Origin: Actinomycetota bacterium
GTDB taxonomy: Bacteria; Actinomycetota; Aquicultoria; Aquicultorales; Aquicultoraceae
DNA: 64,000 nucleotides
Direction of reading: 5' to 3'
Assembly: GCA_018333515.1 (NCBI GenBank)
Contig: JAGXSZ010000027.1
Coordinates: forward strand, 1 to 64,000
Below, one piece after another: positions 2,975 through 19,459 of this stretch. The position numbers and the translations under genes were made by a program. The stretch's first letter is position 1; each line of letters starts with the position of its first letter. A model generated the notes under the pieces. The model made no database searches. It had not been told where the DNA came from and saw only the letters and a list, made by a program, of their open reading frames with translations.

Positions 2975-3538
2975 ATGAAGAGATTAATCACGAGTATTAT
3001 GACCTTTGTTATAACCTTTGCTCTGCTGTTCACGGCCAATGCAGCATTTGCGGCGAGCCAGGGTTCACTTAGTGTCAGCCCCGCAACCGTAGATTCAAAC
3101 GGGACGGTTTCGGCCACGGGCGGCGGTTTTCAGCCGATGGCCGATGTAACGGTCAAGTTTGACGGGGACGGTGCTAAAGTCGTCAAGTCCGATATCAACG
3201 GCAACATATCGTTTAGTTATAAAGTTCCGCCAAGCATAAGCAAGGGTATGCACTCATTATCCGCTCAAGGTCCCTCAAGCGGAACCCATCCTGACGACTC
3301 TATCGAACCGTACTCCACCGGAAGCCGGGTTCTTATCGGCTCGTTGAATGTAGTCGAGAAGCGGCCCGTCTTAGGTGAGCAAGTAAAGCCGGAGCAAACA
3401 GCTACGCCAAGCAAGCCGGTGGCATCGACAAAAGGGCAATTACCATATACCGGCGGCACACCGCTTTGGGTTCTACTAATAGCCGGTCTGGCCTTAACGG
3501 TCGTTGGATTCGGTATCAAAGTGCTTAAGCAAAACTAA
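2975..3538 (+). CDS. LPxTG-anchored cell-wall surface protein
   Basis: A 187-residue secreted protein. It has a signal peptide (MKRLITSIMTFVITFALLF, cleavage probably after AFA near residue 26), a domain of about 90 residues resembling small Ig-like beta-sandwiches (LSVSPATVDSNGTVSATGGGF), a Lys/Pro/Thr spacer, and a sorting signal: LPYTGG, a hydrophobic helix and the basic tail KVLKQN. A strong AAGGAGG ribosome site at 2964-2970 fixes the start at 2975 rather than at upstream in-frame starts. It is the only LPxTG protein in the window, and a sortase lies at 7355 in the same direction. I infer it is the sortase substrate. Its job on the surface is unknown; the Ig-like part may bind sugars or form a stalk. 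Confidence 0.85.
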   Translation: MKRLITSIMTFVITFALLFTANAAFAASQGSLSVSPATVDSNGTVSATGGGFQPMADVTVKFDGDGAKVVKSDINGNISFSYKVPPSISKGMHSLSAQGPSSGTHPDDSIEPYSTGSRVLIGSLNVVEKRPVLGEQVKPEQTATPSKPVASTKGQLPYTGGTPLWVLLIAGLALTVVGFGIKVLKQN

Positions 3539-3683
3539 AAGGTCTGATTCCTCGTTTGTGTAATACCCGCAAGTAACTCCTAACATCTAGAAGTGTTGGC
3601 CGCTGCTCATAAAAGTCACTCGGAATGAGCGAACCCCGAAATCCGGATGTATACGCGCGCAGTATAGAAGTGTGCTCGCTATG

Positions 3684-3787
3684 CCGACATATACCGTACC
3701 GACATATACCGTAGCACCGCGGAAACATTCAGTGCGCAACTGCGTTGGCTGCGACTATATGGCCAGTGGCTGCGACTATATGGCCAG
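3684..3787. repeat. Two short tandem duplications before the Wzz/kinase gene
   Basis: A 15-base unit (CCGACATATACCGTA) occurs twice at 3684-3713, and a 21-base unit (TGGCTGCGACTATATGGCCA plus G) twice at 3746-3787. Both are exact. They lie in the 5' leader of the Wzz/kinase gene; an in-frame extension runs through them but has no ribosome site or family homology. Confidence 0.85.
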
Positions 3788-3818
3788 GACTCGAGGCGCA
3801 CACCGATATGGAGTAAAT

Positions 3819-5216
3819 ATGGAAGAGCAACTTGAAATCGTTCAGTTTCTCAAGATAATCGCGAAAAGGAAGGGCATTGTCGTAATCGGCACTGCCCTCT
3901 GTGTTCTATTGGCCGTGATTGCGACGATGTACATGACGCCGCGATACGATGCGACAGCCAAAATATTGGTAGCGCAGGCTCAGGCGCCCCTCAACGATCA
4001 ATCATCCTCTGAATCGTACCAGGCCGTTCTCCTTAGTCAGCAGCTCGCCAAGACCTTTAGTGAGATAATGGTCAGCCGCACGCTGGCAGAGCGGGTCATA
4101 ACACGGCTGGAGCTTCCTTTGTTGCCCGATGACCTGATGAAAAAAGTAAAGGCGCAGCCGATACGCGACACCCAGCTCATCGTCCTTAAGGTAACGGATG
4201 TCGATCCGAAGCGCGCCAAGGATATCGCCAACACCTATGCGGATGAATTCATCGCGTTTATCCCGTCGACCGCTCCCGGGGCATCACAGATGAAGGTCAG
4301 CATGGTCGAATCGGCTATCGTAGCGTTGCAACCGGTGACCCCAAAGCCGCTTCTCAACACGGTACTAGCCTTTATGCTCGGTTTGAGTATGAGCATAGGT
4401 TTTGCCTTCGTTCTCGAAAAGCTCGACGTGACCGTGAAAGAGCCGGAGATGCTCGAACAACTTCTCGGCATAACGTCGTTAGGCCTCGTGCCGAAATCAC
4501 AGCAGCCGCTCCTTCTGGGCGACAACAACACTGATACGTCTGAATCGATGAGACGGATCAGGACCAATCTTCAGTACCTCAATTTCGACCAGTCGATACG
4601 ATCTTTCGCGGTGACGAGCCCCGAGACAGGGGATGGAAAGACCACTTTGGCATCGAATTTAGCGATGGTCTTTGCCCAGGCCGGGCAGAACGTTTTACTT
4701 GTCGATTGCGATTTGAGAAGACCGTCCATCGGTAAGGTTTTCCACCTGCGGGAAGCACCAGGGCTCTCAAATGTTCTAATAGGCGCCGCCGACGCCGACT
4801 CGGTTGTCGTCGCGAGCGGGGTAGACGGTTTAAGTATTGTTACAAGCGGACCGATTCCGCCGAACCCCGCCGATCTGTTGAATTCGGAGCGCATGGATGA
4901 TTTGCTGGCAAGATTCGAGAGCCGGTTCGATATTGTTATCCTTGATTGCCCGCCGGTGCCGGCTTTATCCGACACGGTGATTCTTGCGTCGAAAGCCGAC
5001 GCCGTTCTTATGGTTTCGAGTTTTGGTAGATCGAAGAAAGCCGACATGCTCGCCGCGCGGAACGCGCTTGCCAAGGTGGGCGCGCGAATTCTCGGCTTTG
5101 TCATAAACGGTGCACGGACTTCAAAACAGAATGGTTATTATAATCAACCATATACCAGCCGGCAGGCTCTACGTGATGCGCTCCGCAATTTACCCCGCGA
5201 TATAAGAGGTGGTTGA
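3819..5216 (+). CDS. Wzz/CpsC chain-length regulator fused to BY-tyrosine kinase
   Basis: A 465-residue inner-membrane protein. Residues ~1-190 form the Wzz part: a short cytoplasmic start, a first membrane helix near 20-40, an extracytoplasmic region and a second helix near 165-190. The C-terminal half is a bacterial tyrosine kinase with Walker A (ETGDGKTTLASN), Walker A' (LLVDCDLRRP) and Walker B (VILDCPPVP). Such proteins control export and chain length of polysaccharides. The tail has only three tyrosines in a cluster (YYNQPY), fewer than many relatives. The ATG at 3819 follows GGAG and gives the usual family start. It overlaps the DUF4012 gene by four bases. No partner phosphatase is seen in the window. 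Confidence 0.9.
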   Translation: MEEQLEIVQFLKIIAKRKGIVVIGTALCVLLAVIATMYMTPRYDATAKILVAQAQAPLNDQSSSESYQAVLLSQQLAKTFSEIMVSRTLAERVITRLELPLLPDDLMKKVKAQPIRDTQLIVLKVTDVDPKRAKDIANTYADEFIAFIPSTAPGASQMKVSMVESAIVALQPVTPKPLLNTVLAFMLGLSMSIGFAFVLEKLDVTVKEPEMLEQLLGITSLGLVPKSQQPLLLGDNNTDTSESMRRIRTNLQYLNFDQSIRSFAVTSPETGDGKTTLASNLAMVFAQAGQNVLLVDCDLRRPSIGKVFHLREAPGLSNVLIGAADADSVVVASGVDGLSIVTSGPIPPNPADLLNSERMDDLLARFESRFDIVILDCPPVPALSDTVILASKADAVLMVSSFGRSKKADMLAARNALAKVGARILGFVINGARTSKQNGYYNQPYTSRQALRDALRNLPRDIRGG

Positions 5217-7189
5217 TTACTATCGGTGTCTTAAGAAAGAAGACGAACCAGGATAACTCATCGCGTGTTCATAGGACTAAAGATAACCGCGCTAAGAGAA
5301 AAAACACAAGGCTTCTCTTACTCGTGCTTGTGATTCTGCTTGCGCTAACCGCTACGATAGCCGGTCGCAGCATCGTCAGCGACCTGTTAGGCGTGCAAAA
5401 GTGGCTCATCAATGGCCAAGATAGTCTGCGGTCGGCCTATATTGCTGCTGAGAAAGGAGAATTCGACAAATCCCAGCTAAACTTCGAACAAGCGCAAAAC
5501 AGCTTTATGGACGCCGGCATAATCATGAGCAAGCCCGGCGTGACCATGCTTGCGATTGTCCCCGTCGCCAACTCAAACCTCGAAGCGGTTCGTCGTTTGA
5601 CCGAGGCGGGCATCGAGGTAGCGTATGCCGGCGAGGCACTGACTCAAGCCTCGACGAAGTTCTCTAAAAAACAGGGTAAGTTCGATATCAGCATCGATAA
5701 CGGAATGGTAGATATTAAACCATTCATAGAGGCACAACCAGATATCGACCGGGCACACCTGCACGTGCTTCAAGCGATGGCGGCTTTCGATAAGATACCC
5801 GACGGATATCTTATCCCTCAAATAAAGAGCGCGAAGAAAAGGCTCGGAGAAGAGCTTCCGACGTTGAAAACCCTTGTCTCAAAGGCCAAGGTGACCTTCG
5901 ATGTCTTACCCGGAGTCATGGGGGGAGAGGGGAAGAGGCGCTATTTCCTCGCGATTCAGAACAATGCCGAACTGCGCGCGACAGGCGGTCTTATCGGCAA
6001 CTACGGGTTACTGACGGTCGACAACGGCGCCATAAAGCTTGACGAATTCGACGAGATACTCGCCATCGACAATCCAGCCAAACCGATTGACGCCCCCGAG
6101 GATTTTGCCGCACGGTATAGCCGTTTTGAAGGGGCGCGCATCTGGTCGAACGTGAACATGAGCCCCGACTTTCCGACTGTAAGCAGGGTCTTGCTCAAGT
6201 TCTTTGAGAGCGTGCGGGGTGAGAAGCTCGATGGAGTCATCACCATCGACCCGGTCGGGCTCTCGTACCTGCTCGATGCCATCGGGCCACTCACCCTTGC
6301 CGATACGGGTGTCACGATTGACTCGGGCAACGCTGTCGAGTGGACGCTTGTCAAGGCGTACAAGGATTTTCCACAGCGTGACACGCGCAAGGATTTCTTG
6401 GCGGATATCGCGCAAGCGGTCTGGGGGCGCATCATCACCGGGCAGGTGGCGGATAAATCGAAACTCGTAGAGCAGTTCGGGCTGGCGTTATCTGAAAAAC
6501 ATATGGCTTTGTACAGCACCGACGAAAGCGAGCAAAAGATAGCGGAGAGTCTGGGTTATGCCGGTGAGTTGATGCCGACGACCAATGACTATCTACAGGT
6601 CGTTATGCAAAACCACGGGGCGAACAAGGTCGATATCTATATGCACCAAGAGATAAAGCATACGATTGATTTGAGACCGGACGGCTCGGGGCTCGCGACC
6701 CTGTCTATCGATATTTCAAACAAAACTCCGGCTTCAGGCCTGCCGACCTATGTTACAGGCGAGAACTCCTTAGGGGCCAAGGGCGGTCTGAGCAACACAT
6801 GGCTGAGTGTCTATGTGCCGAAGGGCGCCCAATTGCTGAGCGCAAAACTTGACGGCGAGGCCGGTGTAATCGAGATAAACCGCGAAAAAGACAAGACGGT
6901 CTTTTCGAGATATGTAAAAGTACCACCCGGTGCGAACAAGGTCGTGGAGTTATCGTATGAGCTGCCGTATGTGCTTGTCTTCGATAAGAGCGGCATTGAC
7001 TATAGATTTGACTGGCAGGCTCAGCCGGTCATCAATAAGCCCACCGTCACGTCGAGGGTTACGCTTCCCGACGGGTTTGCCATCAGCGAGTTGCCCGACG
7101 GGTTTGCGCGGAAGGGCCACAACGCCGCGTACTCCGGAACACTCTCAAAGGACAAGTCCTTTGATTTTGGGCTTATCGATAACCGATAG
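5213..7189 (+). CDS. DUF4012 membrane-anchored protein of the glycan locus
   Basis: A 658-residue protein with a basic N-terminus, one membrane helix near residues 33-53, then a long extracytoplasmic region. The DUF4012 domain includes YFLAIQNNAELRATGGLIG near residues 243-261. The C-terminal third, with many beta-strand-like segments, resembles no family I know. The start is TTG at 5213, overlapping the kinase stop (TTGA), so translation is probably coupled. DUF4012 proteins are frequent in actinobacterial polysaccharide loci, but their role is undescribed as far as I know. Position suggests a step in polymer assembly or attachment on the outer face of the membrane. Confidence 0.85.
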   Translation: MITIGVLRKKTNQDNSSRVHRTKDNRAKRKNTRLLLLVLVILLALTATIAGRSIVSDLLGVQKWLINGQDSLRSAYIAAEKGEFDKSQLNFEQAQNSFMDAGIIMSKPGVTMLAIVPVANSNLEAVRRLTEAGIEVAYAGEALTQASTKFSKKQGKFDISIDNGMVDIKPFIEAQPDIDRAHLHVLQAMAAFDKIPDGYLIPQIKSAKKRLGEELPTLKTLVSKAKVTFDVLPGVMGGEGKRRYFLAIQNNAELRATGGLIGNYGLLTVDNGAIKLDEFDEILAIDNPAKPIDAPEDFAARYSRFEGARIWSNVNMSPDFPTVSRVLLKFFESVRGEKLDGVITIDPVGLSYLLDAIGPLTLADTGVTIDSGNAVEWTLVKAYKDFPQRDTRKDFLADIAQAVWGRIITGQVADKSKLVEQFGLALSEKHMALYSTDESEQKIAESLGYAGELMPTTNDYLQVVMQNHGANKVDIYMHQEIKHTIDLRPDGSGLATLSIDISNKTPASGLPTYVTGENSLGAKGGLSNTWLSVYVPKGAQLLSAKLDGEAGVIEINREKDKTVFSRYVKVPPGANKVVELSYELPYVLVFDKSGIDYRFDWQAQPVINKPTVTSRVTLPDGFAISELPDGFARKGHNAAYSGTLSKDKSFDFGLIDNR

Positions 7190-7226
7190 AGAAGTAGAGA
7201 TAACCTTACATTGCCGCACGCCTCGC

Positions 7227-7330
7227 GCGAATGAACGCGAGACAGGCTGCAAGCGAATGAACGCGAGACAGGCTGCAAGCGAATGAACGCGAGACAGGCT
7301 GCAAGCGAATGAACGCGAGACAGGCTGCGA
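7227..7330. repeat. Four 26-bp tandem repeats between DUF4012 and sortase genes
   Basis: The unit GCGAATGAACGCGAGACAGG followed by CTGCAA occurs four times in a row, at 7227, 7253, 7279 and 7305. All are identical except the last, which ends CTGCGA. There are no spacers, so this is not CRISPR. The 26-base period is not a multiple of three, arguing against a coding repeat. It sits just before the sortase ribosome site. Confidence 0.95.
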
Positions 7331-7354
7331 GAAAGAACTGGAGGAACGGCGCAA

Positions 7355-8053
7355 GTGAGGAAAGAGCGCTCAAAAGACACTTTGAACAAAATTTCTAACC
7401 TGATGCTGGCTGTCGGGCTTATTTGCCTGGTGGTGCCAGCCGGCCTATGGCTTAACGCAAAATACTACCAGTGGAATGAAGCTAAAAAATGGCAGCCGAT
7501 TGCACGCGTTTCGGCCGATAGTGACCGCTCGGCCTCGGTTGCCGTGAAAGACGGCGACGATAACATTGGTGGGTCTACCGATGGGAGTGCCACCGCCGGC
7601 GATATCGCTGACTTAGTAGCCGACGGTCCAGCGGCTACGGGGAAGAGTATCGGGTTTATCGTCATACCAAAGCTTGACCTCAACCTTAGCATTATAGAGG
7701 GTGAGACCTGGACCAATCTGGCAAAAAGCCCCGCACGTGTCTCAAAGACCGCACAAATCGGCGCCATCGGTACTTCACTTATATCGGGACACCGCACCAT
7801 GTTCTCGGCGCCCTTCCGCGACCTCGACCGGCTGGATATCTCGGACCGTGTGTTCGTCTATACCGAGCAAGCGCTTTTTGTATACACGGTCATCGGGATA
7901 AAAAGAGTAAAACCGGACGACTGGAGTGATATAGAATCGGGTGTTGAGCGAAGACTCGTACTCTCGACCTGCGACCCTGTGTACTCGGCGGCCAAACGTC
8001 TCTTAGTCATAGCGCGGTTGAGCAACGCTCAAAAGCTGGACGACGCGAAATAG
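7355..8053 (+). CDS. Sortase
   Basis: A 232-residue transpeptidase with an N-terminal membrane helix (LMLAVGLICLVVPAGLWL), a low-complexity linker rich in Asp, Gly and Ser, and a sortase domain from ~residue 97 (IGFIVIPKLDLNLSI). The three catalytic residues are visible: His in SGHRT, Cys in LVLSTCDP and Arg in KRLLVIARL. Sortases cut LPxTG-like signals and join the protein to the wall or to another surface protein. Overall layout is that of class D/E/F housekeeping-type enzymes; I cannot fix the class by eye. GTG start with GGAGG about 10 bases upstream. The LPxTG protein at 2975 is the obvious substrate. Confidence 0.92.
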   Translation: MRKERSKDTLNKISNLMLAVGLICLVVPAGLWLNAKYYQWNEAKKWQPIARVSADSDRSASVAVKDGDDNIGGSTDGSATAGDIADLVADGPAATGKSIGFIVIPKLDLNLSIIEGETWTNLAKSPARVSKTAQIGAIGTSLISGHRTMFSAPFRDLDRLDISDRVFVYTEQALFVYTVIGIKRVKPDDWSDIESGVERRLVLSTCDPVYSAAKRLLVIARLSNAQKLDDAK

Positions 8054-8197: not shown

Positions 8198-10147
8198 ATG
8201 TCAATATTAAACAATGATGTGGCCGAGCAACCTTGTACGGCACGAGCGGAGCTTTTTCAAAGCATAATAAGGCAGCTAAAACTTACAAGGCTGAAGCAGC
8301 CTGTTTTTTTGTTGGTCGACGCGGCGCTCGTCGTTATCGCACTTTTCATGTCGTTCTTGCTGCGTTTCGGCATGAGCGTCCCGCAGACCTATATGGCTAC
8401 TCTCATCGCAATCCTGCCGATTGCGATATTGACGAAAGTGCCGGTCTTTTATGCCTTCGGTTTCTATCAACAACTGTGGCAATACGCGAGTATGAAAGAG
8501 GGCCTCAGGTTGTTGGGCGGGATAACATCCGCCTCGTTTCTGTTTCTCGGAGTTCTCTGGTTGAGCCAAAATATTACCATCCCGCGCGGAGTGTTTATCA
8601 TCGACTGGATGCTGACTTTGTCGCTCATCGGCGGGAGTTATTTTTTGATTCGAGCCCAAAAAGACCTCTTTCCGACACTCAACTTCGCAGTCCATGACGG
8701 GGAACGGACACAGGTCATTATCGTCGGCGCCGGCGCCGCGGGGAGCGGCCTTGTCAAACAGATGCAGTCGAGCCCGGAGTGCGGCTACCGGCCCATCGCG
8801 ATATTAGACGATGACCCCGCGAAGAACGGGCTGATGATTCACGGCATCGAGGTTGTAGGGGCAAGTACGGCAATCCCGACTATCCTGGCGAAATATCCTG
8901 TCGACGAGATAATCCTGGCGATTCCTTCGGCTGCGGTGAGAGATAGACGGCGCATTGCGCTGGAGTGCCGGGAGATAGGCATTGCCTGCAAGACCGTACC
9001 CGACCTCTCCGAACTCGTCGGCGGCAACATAAGCCTCTCGCAGATTCGCGATATCGACCCCAAGGAACTGCTCGGCAGAAAAGAGGTCGATACCGATTTA
9101 AGAGATACGATTACCTGCTATAAAAACAGGACCGTACTGATAACCGGAGCGGCAGGTTCCATTGGCTCTGAGATTTGCCGCCAGGTCGTTTACCTGAAAC
9201 CGGCCAGAGTCATCGCCACCGATATCTCGGAGAACGGGCTCTACCACCTCGACGAAGAGATGCGGGCTAGTTTAAACTTGGGCCGGGCGCCGCTTGAGAT
9301 TAATATAATGGATGTTCGGGACAAGCACGCTATCGAGCGGGCCTTTAACGCATACAAACCGGACATAGTATTCCACGCTGCGGCCTACAAGCATGTGCCG
9401 ATGATGGAGAACCATATGCTCGAGGCTATGGAGAACAATTTTGTCGGTACGCGTAATGTGATAGAAGCCGTTACACGCCATAAGTGCGAGCGGTTCACGC
9501 TCATATCTACCGATAAGGCCGTCAACCCGACAAGCGTCATGGGTCTATCGAAACAACTGGGAGAACGGTCTGTGCGGGCGGCGGCAAGCAAGGACGGCGG
9601 CACCAAGTTCATGGCGGTCAGGTTCGGCAATGTTTTGGGGAGTAACGGCAGTGTTATTCCTAAGTTTAAGAGGCAGATTCGCGACAATGAACCGATAACC
9701 GTCACCCATCGCGAAATAACCCGGTACTTCATGACTATCCAAGAAGCGGTATACCTGGTTACCCAGGCGACCGCTATCGGCAAGGGCGGGGAAGTCTTCG
9801 TACTCGATATGGGTGAGCCGATAAACATCTATGATTTAGCCGTGAGCATGGTGCGGCTCTCGGGTTTTGAGCCCGATGAGGATATACCGATTCAGGTGAC
9901 GGGTTTGAGGCCGGGAGAGAAGTTGTATGAAGAACTATTTGCCGAAGGGGAAAGCATTAATCGAACCATTCATCCTAAGATAAACGAGGCATGGAACGAG
10001 TACGACAGGGTTGCGGATGCCGGGTTCCTGAAAGGGCTTGAAAATATCGTTAGAACGGGCGACGAGAAGAGGCTTGCAAGAAAATTGAGCGATGTGTCTA
10101 TTGCGGCATCCGGCAAATTCGACACGAACGTTCGCTTTGGGGCTTAG
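8198..10147 (+). CDS. Membrane nucleotide-sugar 4,6-dehydratase, CapD/PglF/WbpM type
   Basis: A 649-residue protein with four N-terminal membrane helices (~residues 35-150), a CoA-binding-like Rossmann domain (VIIVGAGAAGSGLVKQM, near 173) and a C-terminal extended SDR domain from ~305 (VLITGAAGSIGSEI). The SDR core has STDKAVNPTSVMGLSKQLGE, where Met replaces the usual Tyr and the Lys is kept, as in this dehydratase family. It should convert a UDP-N-acetylhexosamine to the 4-keto-6-deoxy sugar, the first step to bacillosamine- or QuiNAc-like sugars. The DegT aminotransferase at 19617 could act on its product. Full length for the family. Confidence 0.92.
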   Translation: MSILNNDVAEQPCTARAELFQSIIRQLKLTRLKQPVFLLVDAALVVIALFMSFLLRFGMSVPQTYMATLIAILPIAILTKVPVFYAFGFYQQLWQYASMKEGLRLLGGITSASFLFLGVLWLSQNITIPRGVFIIDWMLTLSLIGGSYFLIRAQKDLFPTLNFAVHDGERTQVIIVGAGAAGSGLVKQMQSSPECGYRPIAILDDDPAKNGLMIHGIEVVGASTAIPTILAKYPVDEIILAIPSAAVRDRRRIALECREIGIACKTVPDLSELVGGNISLSQIRDIDPKELLGRKEVDTDLRDTITCYKNRTVLITGAAGSIGSEICRQVVYLKPARVIATDISENGLYHLDEEMRASLNLGRAPLEINIMDVRDKHAIERAFNAYKPDIVFHAAAYKHVPMMENHMLEAMENNFVGTRNVIEAVTRHKCERFTLISTDKAVNPTSVMGLSKQLGERSVRAAASKDGGTKFMAVRFGNVLGSNGSVIPKFKRQIRDNEPITVTHREITRYFMTIQEAVYLVTQATAIGKGGEVFVLDMGEPINIYDLAVSMVRLSGFEPDEDIPIQVTGLRPGEKLYEELFAEGESINRTIHPKINEAWNEYDRVADAGFLKGLENIVRTGDEKRLARKLSDVSIAASGKFDTNVRFGA

Positions 10148-10331
10148 TTTCAAGCATTGCTCCGGCGATTAATTATCTGAATTGCTAATAAGCGTGTCAC
10201 AAGCTCATGCAAGTGAAATACGAGATAAAAATTTAAAATTAAGTCACCGGCGTAATAATAATGGTGGTGTAAGGTCATTGCAGCAGAACGATGCAGGAAA
10301 ATTTCAGGTAAACATTGCAGCTGAGCCCATA

Positions 10332-11645
10332 ATGGTTTCCGGACTATCGTTGAGGCAGAACTTCTCTTGGACCCTCGTCGGCAATATTGTCTATGCGGCC
10401 TGCCAGTGGGGGATGCTCGTCGTCCTCGCGAAGATGGGCAGCCCGGTGATGGTCGGGCAGTTCGCGTTGGGGCTGGCTGTAACTGCTCCCATTATCATGT
10501 TTGCAAATTTGCAGTTGCGGGCTGTGCAAGCGACCGATGCCCGGCACGAATACCTCTTCGACGACTACCTTAGCCTTCGTTTAGCCACGACCATTGCGGC
10601 GCTTGCTGCTATCGCAGGTGTGGTTATTTTCTCGGGATATAGAAGCGAGACGGCGCTTGTAATCTTGGCCGTGGGCGTGGCTAAGGCGTTCGAAGCGATA
10701 AGCGATGTCTTCTATGGACGGCTGCAGCAGCATGAGCGTATGGATAGAATCGCCAAATCGATGATAATAAAGGGCCCGCTGTCATTGCTGGCCCTTGGTT
10801 TTGGCGTTTATCTTACTGATAGTACGCTGTGGGGCGCGGTAGGACTGGCTGTTGCTTGGGCACTCGTGCTCGTCAGCTACGATGTGCGCAGTGGCTTGAC
10901 GCTTAAGGGGCGGGATGCAGGTGTGGCTGATGTATCTGCTGATGGGGGTCGCCGGGTGGCACCGAGGCCTCGCTGGATCAACAAAACATCGTTCGCCTTA
11001 ATTAAGTTGTCGCTACCTCTCGGCTTCGTGATGCTGCTGATATCACTTAACGCAAACATCCCGCGCTATTTTATCGAGCATTATCTCGGCGAGCGGGAGC
11101 TAGGCATCTTCGCCGCCATCGCCTATCTTATGGTGGCCGGGGGCATGGTAGTAAATGCGCTCGGGCAATCCGCAAGCCCGCGTTTGGCTAAGCATTATGC
11201 CGCGGCTGAGGCCAAGCCGTTTCGACATTTGCTCGGCAAGCTTATCGCGATATCTGCGTTGTTGGGTCTTGCGGGCGTGGCAATCGTTGCGGTTGCCGGC
11301 GAGACCATCTTAACGATGATATACAAGCCTGAGTATGCGCAACATCTCGATGTTTTTCTTCTACTCATGGTAGCGACGGGGCTTGGTTTTAGCGCCTCGT
11401 TTTTAGGTTATGCGATGACAGCGGCGCGGTACTTCAGGGTGCAAGCACCGCTATTTGCTATGGTAACGGCGGTGTCAATACTAACATGTTTATGGTTGGT
11501 CCCGTTATATGGGCTCAGCGGTGCGGCTGTGGCGCTAGTTATCGCTGCGGCGGTGCAGCTCTTGGGCAGCCTGGCGATTACCGTATTTGCGATTTATAAA
11601 CTTAGCATTTGCGCGAAGGTGGCGATGGCTCATGACTCCATCTAG
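10332..11645 (+). CDS. Wzx-type oligosaccharide flippase
   Basis: A 437-residue polytopic protein of the MATE/MOP superfamily with 12 or so hydrophobic segments, beginning LRQNFSWTLVGNIVYAACQW. It should move an undecaprenyl-linked repeat unit across the membrane. The open frame extends to a TTG at 10182, but those 50 extra residues are polar and unlike the family, so I chose the ATG at 10332; neither start has a strong ribosome site. It overlaps the next glycosyltransferase gene by 14 bases. Confidence 0.85.
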   Translation: MVSGLSLRQNFSWTLVGNIVYAACQWGMLVVLAKMGSPVMVGQFALGLAVTAPIIMFANLQLRAVQATDARHEYLFDDYLSLRLATTIAALAAIAGVVIFSGYRSETALVILAVGVAKAFEAISDVFYGRLQQHERMDRIAKSMIIKGPLSLLALGFGVYLTDSTLWGAVGLAVAWALVLVSYDVRSGLTLKGRDAGVADVSADGGRRVAPRPRWINKTSFALIKLSLPLGFVMLLISLNANIPRYFIEHYLGERELGIFAAIAYLMVAGGMVVNALGQSASPRLAKHYAAAEAKPFRHLLGKLIAISALLGLAGVAIVAVAGETILTMIYKPEYAQHLDVFLLLMVATGLGFSASFLGYAMTAARYFRVQAPLFAMVTAVSILTCLWLVPLYGLSGAAVALVIAAAVQLLGSLAITVFAIYKLSICAKVAMAHDSI

Positions 11646-12774
11646 CGTGAGACCCATAAGGATAATGCACGTAGTCGGCGGCATGGAGCGCGCGGGCACC
11701 GAAACATGGCTCATGCATGTTTTGCGAAACATCGACCGCGACGCGTTCCAGATGGACTTTGTCGTCCACACCGACCAGCCCTGCGCTTTCGACGAAGAGA
11801 TTCGGGACCTAGGCTCAAAGGTCATACCTTGCTTGAATCACGCCAATCCGGTCGCCTACGCCTGCAATTTCAACCGGATTCTGCGGCGTCACGGGCCTTA
11901 CGATGTTGTCCATAGCCATGTTCACAATTTCAGCGGCTATATTCTGTGGCTTGCGCGCCGGACTGGAGTGCCTATGCGCATCGCACATAGCCACCTCGAT
12001 ACCAGTGACTTTGATGATGCCTCATCGCACGTCAGGCGTCTATATATATCTTTAACAAAGCGGATGATGAGAAATAGCGCGACCCATGGTTTGGCAGCGA
12101 GCGAGAAGGCGGCCATAGCTTTGTTTGGTGAGGATTGGGCGGCCGATGCCAGATGGCAGATTCTTTATTGCGGCATCGACTTGAATCCCTTTGCCGAACC
12201 GGTCGACGCAACGGTCGTGCGCGCAGAATTGGGCATAGCCGCCGACTCGTTCGTCCTCGGGCATGTCGGCAGGTTTATGGAGCAGAAAAACCACGGATTT
12301 CTAATCGATATCGCAGTGGAGGTCGCGCGTCGTGAGTCGAATATGCGCTTGCTGCTGGTCGGCGATGGTCTTTTACAGGAGGAGATTAGACAAAAAATCG
12401 TTGATAAGGGTCTTGCGGACTATGTGATTATGGCTGGCGTACGTGAAGACGTGGCGAGGCTTATGCTCGGAGCTATAGATGTTTTCGTCTTTCCTTCGCT
12501 ATATGAGGGACTTGGCCTTGTATTAATTGAAGCCCAAGCAGCTGGTCTTCCATGCGTCATCTCAGACGTGATTCCCAGCGAAGCCGATCTTGACGGTCGG
12601 CTAATATCACGACAACCGCTTGCGACGTCAGCCTCGGAGTGGGCGGAAGTCATACTGACATTAAACCGACATTCTCTAAACACTGACAAAATCGAGTATT
12701 TTATGAAGGTTAAGCGGAGCGATTTTAATATAGCGTCAAGTATGAGTAAATTAGTAGAGGTCTATTATGGCTAG
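11632..12774 (+). CDS. Glycosyltransferase family 4 (EpsF-like)
   Basis: A 380-residue GT-B enzyme. The N-terminal domain starts RIMHVVGGMERAGTETWLMH; the C-terminal donor-binding domain has GHVGRFMEQKNHGF and the E-x7-E region FVFPSLYEGLGLVLIEAQA. These match EpsF-like transferases of exopolysaccharide loci. It should add a sugar from a nucleotide donor to the lipid-linked repeat unit on the cytoplasmic side. The start was set to the ATG at 11632, which follows a weak AGGTGG; longer starts run far into the flippase gene. Overlaps the next gene by eight bases. Confidence 0.88.
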   Translation: MTPSSVRPIRIMHVVGGMERAGTETWLMHVLRNIDRDAFQMDFVVHTDQPCAFDEEIRDLGSKVIPCLNHANPVAYACNFNRILRRHGPYDVVHSHVHNFSGYILWLARRTGVPMRIAHSHLDTSDFDDASSHVRRLYISLTKRMMRNSATHGLAASEKAAIALFGEDWAADARWQILYCGIDLNPFAEPVDATVVRAELGIAADSFVLGHVGRFMEQKNHGFLIDIAVEVARRESNMRLLLVGDGLLQEEIRQKIVDKGLADYVIMAGVREDVARLMLGAIDVFVFPSLYEGLGLVLIEAQAAGLPCVISDVIPSEADLDGRLISRQPLATSASEWAEVILTLNRHSLNTDKIEYFMKVKRSDFNIASSMSKLVEVYYG

Positions 12775-14197
12775 CCATACGCCCGCGGAGTTCAACGCAA
12801 TACTCAAAGCGTCGCAGCAGGAAGCGTCGAGCGGACCGGCCGAGACGCTACGGTTGCGAAAAAGCAGAATGCTTTTTTTTGCGCTTGGTTTCTATCTGTT
12901 GGCACAGGCCTTCATGATACCGGTTCGGGCCGTCGGGCCGTCGTGGGCCATCTGGCCGACGCTTGCCGACATCGCACTGCTCATGCTCTTGTTGGCGTTC
13001 TTGCCGTACATAGCGGCCGGCTTAAGGGTTATTTCGCAAGCAAATAAAGTGGTTTTCAATAATCTATTGATTGTTTTTTGTGGCGCGGCCTTGTCATACT
13101 TCGTCTTTATTCGTTTCTATCCCGGATGGAGTCCTGACGCCGCATTCGATCGCTCTAATGTTATCTTCGGCGCATTCCAGCTTTACCGGTTGGCTCAATT
13201 TATCCTCATATTCTGGATAACTGCGCAGATACCCCTTACCGAGAAGCGCATCACTGTGCTTCGTCGAATCGTCGATGGCGCCTTCATATTTACGACTATC
13301 ACGGTTGTCCTTACATATTTCGATATTCTTCCGAAAAGCGCTCTTGTCGCGCACTTGCCCTCTGATTTAAGCGTCGCCGGTCCCTGGGTTTTTTATTCCA
13401 CGAGTTTCGCCGGCAAGGGCTGGGGAACGATAGGATACAACCACGCATATGTAGCCGCGCAGTTGCTCATGCTCGCTGCCCTGCGTATATACCTGAGTTC
13501 GGCCAGCAAAGCGTTCGCCAACGGGACAATATTGTTTGTGACTACGCTGGCGATATTTATGAGCGGGAGCCGTGCCGGCTTGGCGGCGGCACTGCTTTTT
13601 GCGGTAACGGTTCTGTACAAGAAGCCGATTTACATAATAGCCATAGTCGTTATCGGGGCGGTCGCAGTGCTGGCCTCCATGAGCTTGGTTGGTGGTTTAT
13701 CGGTTGCGGATAGCTCGTTCAGTCTCATAGGTTCGACGTTCGAACGGCAATTAGCCCTCGGTAGTGCATACGAGTCTGAGAGCTTGAACGGCAGGGACAC
13801 GATATGGTTAGACTATCTGGTGCGCCTCAATGAGGCGCCCAAGCTCTGGGTCTTCGGGTCAGGGTTTGGCGCGGCGGGCGGTCAAAACGCCCACCTTCTC
13901 TATTTACAAATAATCTATGAGGTCGGCTTGATAGGCCTAGTAGTGTTCGCATGGCTTATACACAGGGTGCTTTCTTATTTAAGTGTATGCGAGCGGGGTG
14001 TCAAGCCACTATTTTGGGTTACGATTGCTTTCTTGCTATCGGGTTTCTCGCAAGAGACGTTCTATCCGGTTCCGTCGTTCGGACACTTTTTAGGTTTTTA
14101 TCTTTGCTCGTTGGCGATAGCGCTTCGTGTGCGTGAGGTTGACGATGAAAGTGAGCAAGGCCCGGATTTTGGATGCGGCACAAACATGACAGCATAG
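12767..14197 (+). CDS. O-antigen ligase/polymerase-like membrane protein (Wzy/WaaL)
   Basis: A 476-residue protein with about 11 hydrophobic segments and a large polar loop in the C-terminal half (around NGRDTIWLDYLVRLNEAPKL), the layout of Wzy/WaaL proteins. A motif MSGSRAGLAAALLF precedes the loop and resembles the SRAG-like motif of the O-antigen ligase family. It would polymerise repeat units on the outer membrane face or transfer the glycan to an acceptor; sequence alone cannot separate the two. Eight-base overlap with the transferase upstream. Confidence 0.82.
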   Translation: MASHTPAEFNAILKASQQEASSGPAETLRLRKSRMLFFALGFYLLAQAFMIPVRAVGPSWAIWPTLADIALLMLLLAFLPYIAAGLRVISQANKVVFNNLLIVFCGAALSYFVFIRFYPGWSPDAAFDRSNVIFGAFQLYRLAQFILIFWITAQIPLTEKRITVLRRIVDGAFIFTTITVVLTYFDILPKSALVAHLPSDLSVAGPWVFYSTSFAGKGWGTIGYNHAYVAAQLLMLAALRIYLSSASKAFANGTILFVTTLAIFMSGSRAGLAAALLFAVTVLYKKPIYIIAIVVIGAVAVLASMSLVGGLSVADSSFSLIGSTFERQLALGSAYESESLNGRDTIWLDYLVRLNEAPKLWVFGSGFGAAGGQNAHLLYLQIIYEVGLIGLVVFAWLIHRVLSYLSVCERGVKPLFWVTIAFLLSGFSQETFYPVPSFGHFLGFYLCSLAIALRVREVDDESEQGPDFGCGTNMTA

Positions 14198-14362
14198 TAG
14201 GGCGAGCTGACATGGGGTTACAGGCAGAATGATGGCAGTAGTGGCGCATATACATAAGCCGATTATATCAAGGAGCTTATCAAATTGAACTTCATCGTAT
14301 TTCTGGAGTCACTTTCTCTAAGTCTCGGTGGTAAAGCACTTAAGGAGGTTGTTGGTTAGATC

Positions 14363-15265
14363 ATGCGTGTTTCCATTGGTCTTCCTTTTTATAATGCACA
14401 GCGCACGCTTGCTGATGCAATTCGCTCAATATTTGCACAAACTATTGACGACTGGGAACTCATCCTTGTCGATGACGGTTCGTCCGATGGCTCTGCTGAC
14501 ATCGCGCGTGCTGTGAGCGATCCACGAGTCAGGGTTGTGAGTGGTGGTGTCAATAAAGGACTTCCTTGCAGGCTAAATCAGATCGCACGGCTGGCTAAAG
14601 GTGAATATATTGCGCGCATGGATGCCGATGACCTGATGCATCCTGACCGATTAGCCCTTCAACTACAGTATCTTGACGCAAATCCGACGGTCGATGTCGT
14701 TTTTACGGCGATATACACGATAGACGAGAATAACATACCGGTCGGTGCTCGAAGTTTTGCAGAGCTTGACCTTAGGCCTAAAGCTTTATTGCGACACGCC
14801 TTGGCAGCTCATGTGACCATGATGGGCCGCGTAGAGTGGTTTCGCGACAACCTTTATGATGGTAATTTTGTTCGCGCTGAAGACCATGAATTATGGTGTC
14901 GCACCTACGGACATACCGCCTTTGACAAGATTCGACAACCACTGCTTTTTGTTCGTGAACCTACCGATGTAAATCTCAACAACTACTTGCACAGCTGCAA
15001 AACAGATCGGAAGATATTTAAGATATATGGTCCTTCGATGGTGGGGTGGCCTACAACAATAGAACTTGTGGTCAAATCGCATCTTAAAGGTCAGCTTTAC
15101 CGCGTTTTTACGGCGTTGGGCAAGCAAGATGCTCTCCTCAGGATGAGAAACAATACGCTCAGCGAACACGAAAAGGAAACAGCAGCGCAGGTTATTCAAC
15201 ACATATTAGCGGCTCATGTACCTGGCTTTACCGCCTATGTATTACGTGAGGAGTGCTTAATGTGA
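14363..15265 (+). CDS. Glycosyltransferase family 2
   Basis: A 300-residue GT-A enzyme. The N-terminal half is typical: VSIGLPFYNAQRTLADAIRS, the nucleotide-binding LILVDDGSSDGS, and the metal-binding ARMDADDLMHPDR (DxD). It should transfer one sugar to the growing repeat unit in the cytoplasm. An AAGGAGG lies at 14341-14347, somewhat far from the ATG. The 165-base gap before it holds no other gene. Base composition here is a little more AT-rich than in the flanking genes, which may mean separate origin. Confidence 0.88.
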   Translation: MRVSIGLPFYNAQRTLADAIRSIFAQTIDDWELILVDDGSSDGSADIARAVSDPRVRVVSGGVNKGLPCRLNQIARLAKGEYIARMDADDLMHPDRLALQLQYLDANPTVDVVFTAIYTIDENNIPVGARSFAELDLRPKALLRHALAAHVTMMGRVEWFRDNLYDGNFVRAEDHELWCRTYGHTAFDKIRQPLLFVREPTDVNLNNYLHSCKTDRKIFKIYGPSMVGWPTTIELVVKSHLKGQLYRVFTALGKQDALLRMRNNTLSEHEKETAAQVIQHILAAHVPGFTAYVLREECLM

Positions 15266-15296
15266 TATACGGATGGTGGACCGGGTTTGATGTGAA

Positions 15297-17207
15297 ATGC
15301 TAAGTGCAAGACTGCGGGGTCTAATGGTGATGTTTAAACCAAGAGATTCACACATAATAAATTTGTCGAAGGCTGGGCCAACGATTATATGCATGACCAC
15401 GGTACCTCAGACACTAAGATTTTTTGTTGGTCAAATCGGATATTTGAAGGAGCGGGGTATAGACGTCCATTGTCTGTCCTCACCAGGTCCGGAGCTTGAC
15501 GAATTTGCTTTGTGTGAACGAGTTCCTGTTCACGCCATTGAAATGCCTCGACGCATAACGCCCTTGCGCGACATTGCAGCGGTTCTAAGAATCTGGCGGC
15601 GATTGCACATCGTTAAGCCACACATTGTTCATGCCCACACGCCCAAAGGCGGACTACTTGGAATGGTGGGTGCATGGTTGGCGCGAGTGCCCGTACGCAT
15701 CTATCATATTCACGGTTTACCCTTCATGACCGCTACGGGATACAAAAGGGTCCTGCTAATATTGACCGAGAAATTGGCTTGCCGCCTTGCCGACCAAGTC
15801 TTATGTGTCAGCGACTCGATTCTCGGGGTGGCTGTGGGCGCGGGCATTTGTCAGGCAAACAAAATCAAGGTGCTGCATAACGGGAGCATTAATGGCGTCG
15901 ACTCAAAAGCGATGTTCAATCCGATGAAAAAAACACAGGACGCGCGGACTCGTGTCTGTGAAAACTACAATATTCCAGAAGAGGCTCGAATTATCGGCTA
16001 TGTCGGCCGAATCGTTCGCGATAAGGGTATCGCGGAATTAGCAGGCGCCTGGAACGTTTTGCGGAAGCAATCCCCGGAATTTCATCTGGTCGTCGTCGGG
16101 GCCTTCGAATCGCAAGACCCTGTACAAGAAGACGTAATACAAATGCTTTATGATGATGCGCGCGTGCATTTCACTGGCAGAGTCAAGGACCCCTCGGAGC
16201 TGTACGGGGTGATGGATGTCCTAGCTTTGCCGAGTTATCGCGAGGGATTCCCTGTTGTGCCCATGGAGGCCGCCGCCATGGCGGTGCCCGTCGTGGCGAC
16301 CCGTGTGCCCGGCTGTATCGACGCGGTCCAAGACAATGTGACCGGTGCGCTCGTGCCTGCATATGACGCGGCGGCGCTGCGAGAAGCGATCGCGCGGTAT
16401 CTACAAGACCCCGAGTTGCGGCGAGCCCATGGGCAGGCTGGGCGAATGCGAGTTGAGCGCGATTTTCAGCCGGAGGTGATATGGGAAGCGCTCTATGCTG
16501 AATATGGCCGCTTATTGAAGGAGAAGCGGCTTTTTTCAGATTCCACGGAATCAAAACATGCGCATAGTATACCGGGAAAGAAGAGCTATCGTTTTCTCAT
16601 AAGTAGAGCCCTAAAAGCAGCGATAGATTTTGGCGTAGCTTTAGTAGGGCTAGTCGTGCTCAGCCCTTTGCTGGTTGCTATAGCCTTATTAGTCCGAATA
16701 TATTTAGGGTCACCGGTGCTGTTCCGTCAGGAGCGCCCTGGTTTTAAAGGCGCGCCGTTTATCATCTATAAGTTTCGAACGATGAGCAACGCACGCGATT
16801 CACACGGCGAACTCTTGCCCGACGAAGAACGTCTCAATCGTCTTGGGAGTTTCTTACGAAGTTCAAGCCTTGATGAGTTGCCGGAACTCTTAAACGTATT
16901 AAAAGGGGAGATGAGCCTGGTCGGGCCGCGTCCCTTAATGATGGAGTATCTCGACAGATATACGCCCGAGCAAGCGCGCAGGCATGACGTGAAGCCCGGA
17001 ATAACCGGTTGGGTGCAGATCAATGGTCGCAATTTACTGACTTGGGATGAGAAATTTGTCTTAGACCTCTGGTATGTAGATAACTGGACATGGTGGCTTG
17101 ATGTCAAGATATGCCTGATGACAGTACTCAAGGTGCTAAAACGAGAAGGAATAAGTGCTGAAGGGTATGCAGTAATGCCCGAGTTTATGGGGTCGGAGAA
17201 GAAATAG
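15297..17207 (+). CDS. Fusion of GT4 glycosyltransferase and phosphoglycosyl transferase
   Basis: A 636-residue two-domain protein. Residues ~25-410 are a GT4 glycosyltransferase (IGYVGRIVRDKGIAELAGAW; ALPSYREGFPVVPMEAAAMA). Residues ~430-636 are a small monotopic phosphoglycosyl transferase: a re-entrant hydrophobic helix (AIDFGVALVGLVVLSPLL), RQERPG, YKFRTM, the catalytic Asp-Glu pair in SLDELPEL, and SLVGPRPL. The frame is uninterrupted. The second domain should put the first sugar phosphate on undecaprenyl phosphate and the first domain could add the next sugar. Three close ATGs (15297, 15324, 15330) make the exact start uncertain. It is the only initiating enzyme in the locus. Confidence 0.9.
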   Translation: MLSARLRGLMVMFKPRDSHIINLSKAGPTIICMTTVPQTLRFFVGQIGYLKERGIDVHCLSSPGPELDEFALCERVPVHAIEMPRRITPLRDIAAVLRIWRRLHIVKPHIVHAHTPKGGLLGMVGAWLARVPVRIYHIHGLPFMTATGYKRVLLILTEKLACRLADQVLCVSDSILGVAVGAGICQANKIKVLHNGSINGVDSKAMFNPMKKTQDARTRVCENYNIPEEARIIGYVGRIVRDKGIAELAGAWNVLRKQSPEFHLVVVGAFESQDPVQEDVIQMLYDDARVHFTGRVKDPSELYGVMDVLALPSYREGFPVVPMEAAAMAVPVVATRVPGCIDAVQDNVTGALVPAYDAAALREAIARYLQDPELRRAHGQAGRMRVERDFQPEVIWEALYAEYGRLLKEKRLFSDSTESKHAHSIPGKKSYRFLISRALKAAIDFGVALVGLVVLSPLLVAIALLVRIYLGSPVLFRQERPGFKGAPFIIYKFRTMSNARDSHGELLPDEERLNRLGSFLRSSSLDELPELLNVLKGEMSLVGPRPLMMEYLDRYTPEQARRHDVKPGITGWVQINGRNLLTWDEKFVLDLWYVDNWTWWLDVKICLMTVLKVLKREGISAEGYAVMPEFMGSEKK

Positions 17208-17252
17208 CCGATTAGGTTTTAGTTACGGATTTATAAAGAGAGGCGTACTTTG

Positions 17253-18359
17253 ATGAAGGAAATACCGTCTCGTTGGGAACATGGTTCTGAATTTCACCTT
17301 TTTTCATACGATCAGCAGAACTCAATCTCTATTCCCTGGAGCGATAGTGGACAGCTATTTGGTTCCGGACGCTATGCGTTTCGCGCGCTGCTGCAGCACG
17401 GCGTAGCTACTCGCGGGTGGCGCCGGTTGTGGATGCCAAGCTATTTTTGTCCGCCGGTTGTGACGGCCGCGTTATCAACAGGGATAAAAGTAGCTATATA
17501 TGACGATGGTCCTGAGAATATACAGCCGGATTTCAAACTGTTAGATTTTCGAAAGGGTGATGTGCTACACCTTAGCAATTATTTTGGCTTACGCACAAAA
17601 TACTCTGCTTTGAATATTGACCGAAGCTTAATCGAAGTGATCGAGAATCATACGCACGATCCATGGTCAACCTGGGCGAGGACCAGTAATGCCGACTGGT
17701 GTATTGCCTCTTTAAGAAAGACACTTCCTATCCCGGACGGTGGCATTGTCTGGACGCCGAAAGGACACCAGTTACCTGAAGCTGCACCTGTTAGTGATTT
17801 GCACCAAAGTGCATCTTTAGAAAAGCTTGCCGCAATGGTTCTTAAGAATTTGTATTTAGAGGGCAAACAGATAGATAAGGAAGTTTTTCGCCGCATGGCT
17901 GTTTCAAGCGAGAACCTCCTTGCCGCCGGTGAGATATCCGGAATACCAGACTGGACTGCTAATATGCTTGGCACCTTCCCGGTTGAGGAGTGGCGTCAAC
18001 AACGACGTCGCAACCATCGCGTCTTGGTAAATGCATTAGCGAACGTATCCTGGCTAAGCGTACTCATGCCTGCGGACGGTGCGGATGTTACGCCTTTTGC
18101 TGGAATTCTTATATTTGACAATGCAGCTCGGTGCAGACACATACGCCAGGCGCTGGCAGCTTCGCACATCTACACAGCCGTTCACTGGTCTCTGGATGAA
18201 CCGGTTATTAAAGGAATACAGCAGAAGCATATTGATTTGAGCAGCCGCTTGTTTTCTGTCCATTGCGATATGCGATATATTGATGCTGATATGGAATATG
18301 TCGCATCACTTATCTATAAGTTTGGCGAAGAATATTGCGAAGGAGGAAGTGCGTCGTGA
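17253..18359 (+). CDS. PLP-fold aminotransferase-like protein of the glycan locus
   Basis: A 368-residue protein with distant likeness to fold-type I PLP enzymes: a glycine/serine helix start (GSGRYAFRALLQHG), an acidic IENHTHDPW segment, and SLRKTLPIPDGG, in which the Lys is placed where DegT-type enzymes hold PLP. I have seen such proteins in exopolysaccharide loci but cannot assign a reaction. It overlaps the next gene (GTGA), so the two probably act together. The start is the ATG at 17253, following AGAGAGG; a TTG one codon earlier is less likely. Confidence 0.6.
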   Translation: MKEIPSRWEHGSEFHLFSYDQQNSISIPWSDSGQLFGSGRYAFRALLQHGVATRGWRRLWMPSYFCPPVVTAALSTGIKVAIYDDGPENIQPDFKLLDFRKGDVLHLSNYFGLRTKYSALNIDRSLIEVIENHTHDPWSTWARTSNADWCIASLRKTLPIPDGGIVWTPKGHQLPEAAPVSDLHQSASLEKLAAMVLKNLYLEGKQIDKEVFRRMAVSSENLLAAGEISGIPDWTANMLGTFPVEEWRQQRRRNHRVLVNALANVSWLSVLMPADGADVTPFAGILIFDNAARCRHIRQALAASHIYTAVHWSLDEPVIKGIQQKHIDLSSRLFSVHCDMRYIDADMEYVASLIYKFGEEYCEGGSAS

Positions 18360-19459
18360 TAGCGGAGTTTGTGAAGCCGAATGACGCAAGGTGGTCGCGC
18401 ATACTCAGAGAAACGCGCCACGATTTCTATCATCTTCCCGAATATATCGAGTTTGCGGCAAAACATGAAGGTGGTGAACCTGTCGTATTCTACGCCGAAT
18501 ACGGGGATGATGTCTTTTTGGCGCCGTTGCTGCTTCGAGGCATTCCGACGGAGCTTGGAAGGGCGCATGGGTTGCGCGATGCGGCGACATCGTATGGATA
18601 CCCGTCGCCGATACTTAAGAGCGAAAATCGTCCCGCTTCACTCTTGCGCTTCCTGCGAGCATTCGCGCAATGCGCGGTGGAAGAAAGAATCGTCACCGCG
18701 TTTATCCGCCTACACCCCATGCTGTCACTGCCCATAGACGGCTTGGAGAAATACGGCGCGCTCTTCCGGCACGGCCAGACCGTCTATATCGACCTTACTT
18801 TGCCATCAGAGCAGATTTGGTCGCAGGTCAGGCGTGACCATCGGGCAAACTTACGCAAGTTAGACAAATCCGGGTTTGAAGCGGTCATGGATGATTGGGA
18901 CTTATACAAGCCTTTTATGCAGCTATACCGGGCCAACATGAACCGCAAGGACGCGAGCGATTTCTATATGTTTTCAGACGACTATTTTCAAGATTTGCGG
19001 GAATCGTTGGGCGGGGGGTTGCATCTTTGCGCGGTCTTGTCGCCAGCCGGGGATGTGGCCGCCGCAGGATTGTTTGTTGTCACAAATAAAATAGTACAAT
19101 TTCATCTTTCCGGCACTGCTGATGGGTATCTTAAGCAAGCGCCCGCGAAGATGATGTTGGATCACGTTTGGCGTTGGGCAAAAGAGGCCGGTAACGAGGT
19201 CTTCCACTTGGGAGGCGGTGTTGGGGGCAACGACGATTCGCTTTTCAAGTTTAAGGCCGGGTTCTCCGACTGCCGAGCCGATTTCTATACATACAGGATG
19301 GTTCTCGACAAGCAGAAGTATGGCATGCTGATGAACGAGCACGCTGAAGAATTCGCAGACTCAAGTAACGGCGATCCACATTTCTTTCCCGGCTATCGCA
19401 AGCCGATGGGGACTCGCGGCTTCGGTGAGCCTACGCTCGAAGGGGCGGTGAGTTCATGA
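18356..19459 (+). CDS. FemAB/GNAT-like acyltransferase
   Basis: A 367-residue protein of the FemAB/BioF2-like acyltransferase group. The second GNAT domain is plain: SQVRRDHRANLRKLDKSGFE, then MQLYRANMNRKDASDFYMF and a conserved FHLGGGVGGNDDSLFKFKAGF near the end. Relatives transfer amino acids from tRNA to peptidoglycan precursors or acylate sugars of surface glycans. In a glycan locus, next to two PLP-fold genes, N-acylation of an amino sugar is the more likely role (inference). GTG start with AAGGAGG 9 bases upstream, overlapping the preceding stop. Confidence 0.75.
   Translation: MIAEFVKPNDARWSRILRETRHDFYHLPEYIEFAAKHEGGEPVVFYAEYGDDVFLAPLLLRGIPTELGRAHGLRDAATSYGYPSPILKSENRPASLLRFLRAFAQCAVEERIVTAFIRLHPMLSLPIDGLEKYGALFRHGQTVYIDLTLPSEQIWSQVRRDHRANLRKLDKSGFEAVMDDWDLYKPFMQLYRANMNRKDASDFYMFSDDYFQDLRESLGGGLHLCAVLSPAGDVAAAGLFVVTNKIVQFHLSGTADGYLKQAPAKMMLDHVWRWAKEAGNEVFHLGGGVGGNDDSLFKFKAGFSDCRADFYTYRMVLDKQKYGMLMNEHAEEFADSSNGDPHFFPGYRKPMGTRGFGEPTLEGAVSS

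Follow-up and report, generated by a model that had tools for sequence, protein, structure and literature searches.

The DUF4012 protein encoded at the head of a glycan locus of an Actinomycetota bacterium (order Aquicultorales) was analysed together with its gene neighbourhood. The locus lies in a stretch of 64,000 nucleotides, referred to here as the window (assembly GCA_018333515.1, contig JAGXSZ010000027.1, positions 1 to 64,000). Structural modelling indicates that the protein very probably contains a domain with an LCP-type fold, and its gene is accompanied in many genomes by a gene for a short secreted protein that carries a sorting signal. We tentatively propose that the DUF4012 protein is a dedicated ligase of its Wzx/Wzy locus, with the LPxTG protein as likely acceptor or partner and the sortase as the anchoring enzyme. 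The LCP fold and the specific LPxTG partner turn DUF4012 into a concrete and testable ligase candidate, and they raise the question of whether sugar coats are anchored through proteins in Actinomycetota. To our knowledge, there is no settled account of capsule attachment in most Actinomycetota.

Organization of the four-gene set

The four genes lie on the same strand at positions 2975-8053, directly before the Wzx/Wzy glycan cluster; the gene positions and the Pfam and NCBIfam matches agree with this arrangement, as first described in the initial annotation. The first gene (2975..3538, +) encodes a 187-aa LPxTG surface protein, consisting of a signal peptide, one Ig-like beta domain, a Thr/Pro/Ser linker, and an LPYTGG sorting signal followed by a hydrophobic stretch and a basic tail. 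The Pfam search matched PF00746 above the cut-off and no other Pfam domain in this protein; weak Ig-like matches were obtained from NCBIfam for its homologues. The second gene (3819..5216, +) encodes a 465-aa Wzz chain-length regulator fused to a BY-type tyrosine kinase (PF13614), and the best start is the ATG at 3819, which is preceded by GGAG. The Wzz and tyrosine autokinase domains were both found in this one protein (PF02706, 48.9 bits; TIGR01007, 182 bits against a cut-off of 108). The third gene (5213..7189, +) encodes the 658-aa DUF4012 protein (PF13196, 134 bits, 6e-39); its coordinates confirm that the TTG start overlaps the stop codon of the Wzz/BY-kinase gene as TTGA.

The fourth gene (7355..8053, +) encodes a 232-aa sortase with an N-terminal transmembrane helix (PF04203, 82.8 bits), in which the sortase residues His (SGHRT), Cys (LSTC), and Arg (IARL) are all present. 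TIGR01076 was matched above its cut-off, and the sortase class models remained below theirs. The best-scoring class model was that of class E (NF033747), at 81.6 bits against a cut-off of 160. The class E sortases are actinobacterial enzymes with LAXTG substrates (PMC5148588), and many DUF4012 neighbours likewise carry LAxTG-type signals; however, the window sortase falls short of this class and its neighbour carries LPYTGG.

Two 37-nt direct repeats (2766-2802 and 2837-2873), 97% identical and 71 nt apart, are located upstream of the LPxTG gene, and each contains a small hairpin, CGCAAGCAATTATTGCG. The repeats are possibly regulatory, or a mobile remnant.

Predicted structure of the DUF4012 protein

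From its sequence, the DUF4012 protein is predicted to have a single N-terminal transmembrane helix (about aa 35-52; 5315..5368, +), also seen in the secondary structure of the model, and an extracytoplasmic domain. AlphaFold2 models were built with alignments of the window protein and the fetched DUF4012 proteins. In the full-length model (pLDDT 88.6, pTM 0.82), the membrane helix is followed by a helical stalk reaching about aa 235, a domain at aa 236-476 (5918..6640, +), and a C-terminal beta-rich domain at aa 477-658 (6641..7186, +). The Foldseek search with the full-length model was led by the C-terminal beta domain, with M1 aminopeptidases and ribophorin I as matches; therefore, the domain at aa 236-476 was modelled alone (pLDDT 90.3, pTM 0.88). 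The structure prediction proposed in the initial annotation thus yielded a confident model, and Foldseek pointed to the LCP fold. In the search against the PDB, LCP structures took ranks 1 to 22 (E-values 2e-5 to 1e-2, probability 0.89-1.00); these comprise Cps2A in complex with octaprenyl pyrophosphate (3tep, 3tel), among others TagT with a lipid-linked substrate (6mpt), S. aureus LcpA, and S. dysgalactiae LytR. Unrelated structures began at rank 23 with an Hsp70 (probability 0.18), and the A. oris LCP structure (5v8c) appeared at rank 26.

Profile comparison with hhalign paired the DUF4012 pattern xDGVIxxDPVxLxxLLxxxGPv with the LCP motif YxxVDFxGFxxxVDaLGGv in the central part, with a score of 24.7. 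Controls made by column and block permutations averaged 14-15, and only 1 of 180 reached 24.7. A reversed LCP alignment was discarded as a control because its result (13 columns, 133 bits) was uninterpretable. When PDB chains were searched by sequence, neither the full DUF4012 profile nor that of the domain recovered an LCP relative, and the Pfam search of DUF4012 found no second family; the link to LCP proteins therefore rests on the fold and the weak profile match.

As a separate observation, the fold of the C-terminal beta domain (6641-7186) is similar to that of the N-terminal domain in M1 aminopeptidases and to ribophorin I, a component of the oligosaccharyltransferase complex.

Conservation of the gene set in the host's order

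The neighbourhoods of 11 DUF4012 loci were read in related genomes of the host's order. The LPxTG, Wzz-kinase, DUF4012, and sortase genes occur there in at least three orders: LPxTG-Wzz-DUF4012-sortase in the window and in genomes G001, G002, and G005; LPxTG-sortase-Wzz-DUF4012 in G009 and G010; and DUF4012-LPxTG-sortase-Wzz, also in G010. G011 has DUF4012-LPxTG-sortase with no Wzz gene nearby. A sortase gene was located within 3 kb of DUF4012 in 9 of the 11 loci, with about 0.15 expected from sortase numbers and genome sizes. An LPxTG protein gene was found within the same distance in eight, and in G003 the contig ends beforehand. Since relatives carry the four-gene set in rearranged form, it is no chance grouping.

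A tree of 32 sortases from these genomes united the nine sortases of the loci in a single clade with support of 100/99; none of 500 label shuffles was as clustered. This clade has a long stem, for which the tool warns of long branches, and the grouping is well supported. As the set stays together through changes of gene order and has its own sortase lineage, the most plausible reading is that it forms a functional unit.

Distribution of DUF4012 and its sorting-signal partner

DUF4012 was found in 111 of the 396 sampled Actinomycetota genomes, which is more than a quarter, and it also occurs in bifidobacteria. The genes sit in polysaccharide loci, and a separate LCP gene was present in just 3 of 101 DUF4012 loci. 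Among loci found by homology, a secreted protein with a sorting-like signal is encoded directly downstream of 46 of 111 DUF4012 genes, compared with 3 of 254 other glycan genes in the same loci (Fisher p ~5e-24). Such p-values overstate the evidence, because gene calling relied on a simple ORF finder, the sorting motif was defined by a pattern, and the genomes are partly related and do not count as independent observations. In an even phylum sample with added relatives, a sorting-signal protein on the same strand ends within 1 kb downstream of 23 of 102 DUF4012 genes; any other 1-kb bin held at most 4 of 102. The suggestion that an LPxTG gene accompanies DUF4012 was therefore borne out as a phylum-wide enrichment.

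Counting other positions and homology matches, the partners occur in 17 families. These proteins are short (~110-250 aa), and usually consist of one Ig-like domain, for which Pfam has no family, and a signal such as LADTGS, LANTGA, LPVTGS, or LPYTGG. In contrast, the co-occurrence of DUF4012 with sortases, on which the initial annotation had rested one of its refuting conditions, was far above chance in the host's order only; elsewhere a sortase was adjacent in about 1 of 90 other DUF4012 loci. With this one case outside the order, sortase adjacency was dropped as a phylum-wide rule. A survey of the open literature, with subscription journals and database notes outside its coverage, found no tested function and no fold for DUF4012, and no description of it as an LCP-fold protein or of its sorting-signal partner.

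Two occurrences on plasmids may be mentioned. On the Streptomyces plasmid NZ_CP108391.1, the gene directly upstream of DUF4012 (4222-4836 of region L287) encodes an Ig-like protein, annotated only as "hypothetical protein", whose sorting-like signal is LAATGS. A megaplasmid of Lachnospira eligens carries a DUF4012 gene (4536-6401 of region L290) in a firmicute, outside Actinomycetota, with no annotated glycan genes within 5 kb.

Proposed function and alternative explanations

The LCP enzymes move glycopolymers linked to polyprenyl pyrophosphate onto peptidoglycan, which is the acceptor for most of those characterised (PMC7831098). In Actinomyces oris, LcpA is needed for the glycosylation of the LPxTG protein GspA; the two genes are adjacent, and SrtA anchors GspA (PMC6381275). 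Both there and in the window, the gene of an LCP-fold membrane protein adjoins that of a sortase-anchored LPxTG protein. The layout in the window is parallel to this: genes for an LCP-fold protein, an LPxTG protein, a dedicated sortase, and a chain-length regulator precede the Wzx/Wzy cluster, and the DUF4012 protein may accordingly ligate the polysaccharide of its locus to the envelope. However, LcpA belongs to the LCP family proper, has catalytic arginines, and relies on the housekeeping SrtA, whereas here DUF4012 is the ligase candidate, the locus is of the Wzx/Wzy type and includes a sortase of its own, and glycosylation is a prediction.

We consider that DUF4012 probably has a ligase function. 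As a membrane-anchored, extracytoplasmic protein with a divergent LCP fold, it would serve its own Wzx/Wzy locus by binding the undecaprenyl-pyrophosphate-linked polymer, whose length would be set by Wzz, and by transferring it to the cell envelope. In the window locus, the small Ig-like LPxTG protein would be a likely acceptor or a co-displayed partner. By analogy with GspA, it might receive the glycan transferred by DUF4012, and this part of the proposal is more tentative than the ligase function itself. The dedicated sortase would then link the LPxTG protein to peptidoglycan, and a protein would thereby hold the coat in place. The initial annotation had proposed that DUF4012 or the sortase may attach either the glycan itself or an LPxTG protein carrying it to the wall; this idea has gained support from the LCP fold, the dedicated sortase clade, and the retention of the LPxTG gene through rearrangements, and it is kept here as a proposal.

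Several results weigh against this proposal. PF03816 matched none of 29 DUF4012 domains, and the LCP motifs GxDxR...RSDT and SIPRD were unseen in the consensus of 169 DUF4012 sequences; in the forms GsDxR...RxDT and SiPRD, these motifs are kept in 50 LCP proteins from the same phylum, and the SIPRD arginine of A. oris LcpA is R149. No profile alignment supports the N-terminal half of the match between DUF4012 and LCP. The query-normalised TM-scores of the DUF4012 domain against LCP structures are moderate (0.33-0.48), so the relationship is distant. In addition, about two thirds of the DUF4012 genes from the even sample lack an LPxTG neighbour, and the LPxTG protein is therefore no obligate acceptor.

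The DUF4012 protein is thus LCP-like without being an LCP family member, since RSDT and SIPRD are missing; going by the model, it is a divergent LCP-fold family outside PF03816. It resembles the LCP transferases TagT, Cps2A, and LcpA in fold, single N-terminal transmembrane helix, extracytoplasmic domain, and polysaccharide-locus setting. It differs from them, besides the missing motifs and PF03816 match, by the helical stalk and the added C-terminal beta domain of ~180 aa, and ordinary LCP genes coexist with it in the host genome. The near-invariant positions in the 169 sequences are E253 (98%), R255 (98%), G259 (99%), D346 (99%), Y383 (96%), and K472 (99%), and the pair G258-G259 also belongs to this set. 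Judged from conservation, E253, R255, D346, and K472 look like a functional site. Inferred from topology, the ExR formed by E253 and R255 could substitute for the metal-binding DxR of LCP enzymes. Placing the N-terminal LCP DxR on this ExR was tried with hhalign, which failed to align them.

The polysaccharide might also be joined straight to peptidoglycan by DUF4012 as an LCP-fold ligase, as with TagT and Cps2A; in this case, the role of the LPxTG protein and the sortase would be limited to the display of a small surface protein that is produced along with the coat. This explanation is in line with the usual acceptor of characterised LCP enzymes (PMC7831098) and with the many DUF4012 loci, bifidobacterial ones included, that have no LPxTG neighbour. 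In Bifidobacterium longum 105-A, the DUF4012 gene BL105A_0406 lies between the priming transferase and wzz genes of the capsule locus (PMC5412050). This gene was guessed to encode an auxiliary envelope protein; its expression is lost in a capsule-negative cpsD mutant, which hence represents no loss of DUF4012 alone (PMC5412050). The likeness to the window is the position beside a priming transferase and wzz in a capsular or exopolysaccharide locus, whereas the bifidobacterial DUF4012 loci showed neither an LPxTG nor a sortase partner. Because many DUF4012 genes have no LPxTG neighbour, peptidoglycan may be the acceptor in such cases, for example in Bifidobacterium. Direct attachment to peptidoglycan seems somewhat less likely than the main proposal; it leaves unexplained why the LPxTG gene lies beside DUF4012 and not beside other glycan genes, and why there is a dedicated sortase clade.

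It is improbable that DUF4012 is a non-catalytic LCP-fold binder of lipid-linked glycan that would act together with Wzz as a chain-length or export scaffold. The near-invariant charged residues suit an active site better, and the LPxTG/sortase link would not be expected of a scaffold, although the missing catalytic motifs, the frequent adjacency of wzz, and the long helical stalk in the model would fit one. Surface and polysaccharide genes often cluster, and sortase adjacency is rare outside the host's order, so that the neighbourhood might reflect a shared genomic location with no functional link. This is very unlikely in view of the sortases of one clade within 3 kb in 9 of 11 loci (~0.15 expected) with varied gene orders, and because LPxTG genes adjoin DUF4012 in 17 families, compared with 3 of 254 control genes.

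Beyond the window, DUF4012 might represent a second, phylum-wide class of LCP-fold ligases, loading complete Wzy-made polysaccharides onto small dedicated LPxTG/LAxTG proteins that are then fixed to the wall by sortases. We regard this broader reading as unlikely, if still worth stating; were it true, the capsule would be held by protein instead of directly by peptidoglycan. Taken together, the results suggest that a way in which cells attach a sugar coat has been overlooked.

Other features of the locus and host genome

The host genome falls in the Candidatus Aquicultor group of Actinomycetota; its closest named relatives are Candidatus Aquicultor metagenome-assembled genomes, with 82-84% identity over the DUF4012 protein. 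The host genome (2.33 Mb) contains one DUF4012 gene and four sortase matches, and two further LCP matches, one strong and one weak, are located away from the locus. No additional LPxTG protein was found by the sorting-signal pattern at two sortase and two LCP loci elsewhere in this genome.

The glycan assembly genes downstream of the four-gene set (8198..17207, +) were assigned by Pfam and NCBIfam. They encode a nucleotide-sugar 4,6-dehydratase (8198-10147), Wzx (10182-11645), a GT4 glycosyltransferase (11587-12774), a Wzy/O-antigen-ligase-like (WaaL-like) protein (12767-14197), a GT2 glycosyltransferase (14363-15265), and a GT4-sugar-phosphate transferase (15297-17207), all on the + strand. 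Within the glycan cluster, a 369-aa open reading frame (17250-18359) with no Pfam or NCBIfam match lies directly before a FemAB-like acyltransferase gene (18335-19459).

Near the start of the window, a CopG-type antitoxin gene (846-1097, -; PF12441) lies near a small open reading frame (1281-1550, +) that appears HicB-like by eye, in a low-GC region; the two are possibly a toxin-antitoxin remnant. An AAA_14/DUF4143 ATPase gene (24475-25752) lies in a low-GC stretch (41-42%, compared with ~54% around it) and was likely acquired.

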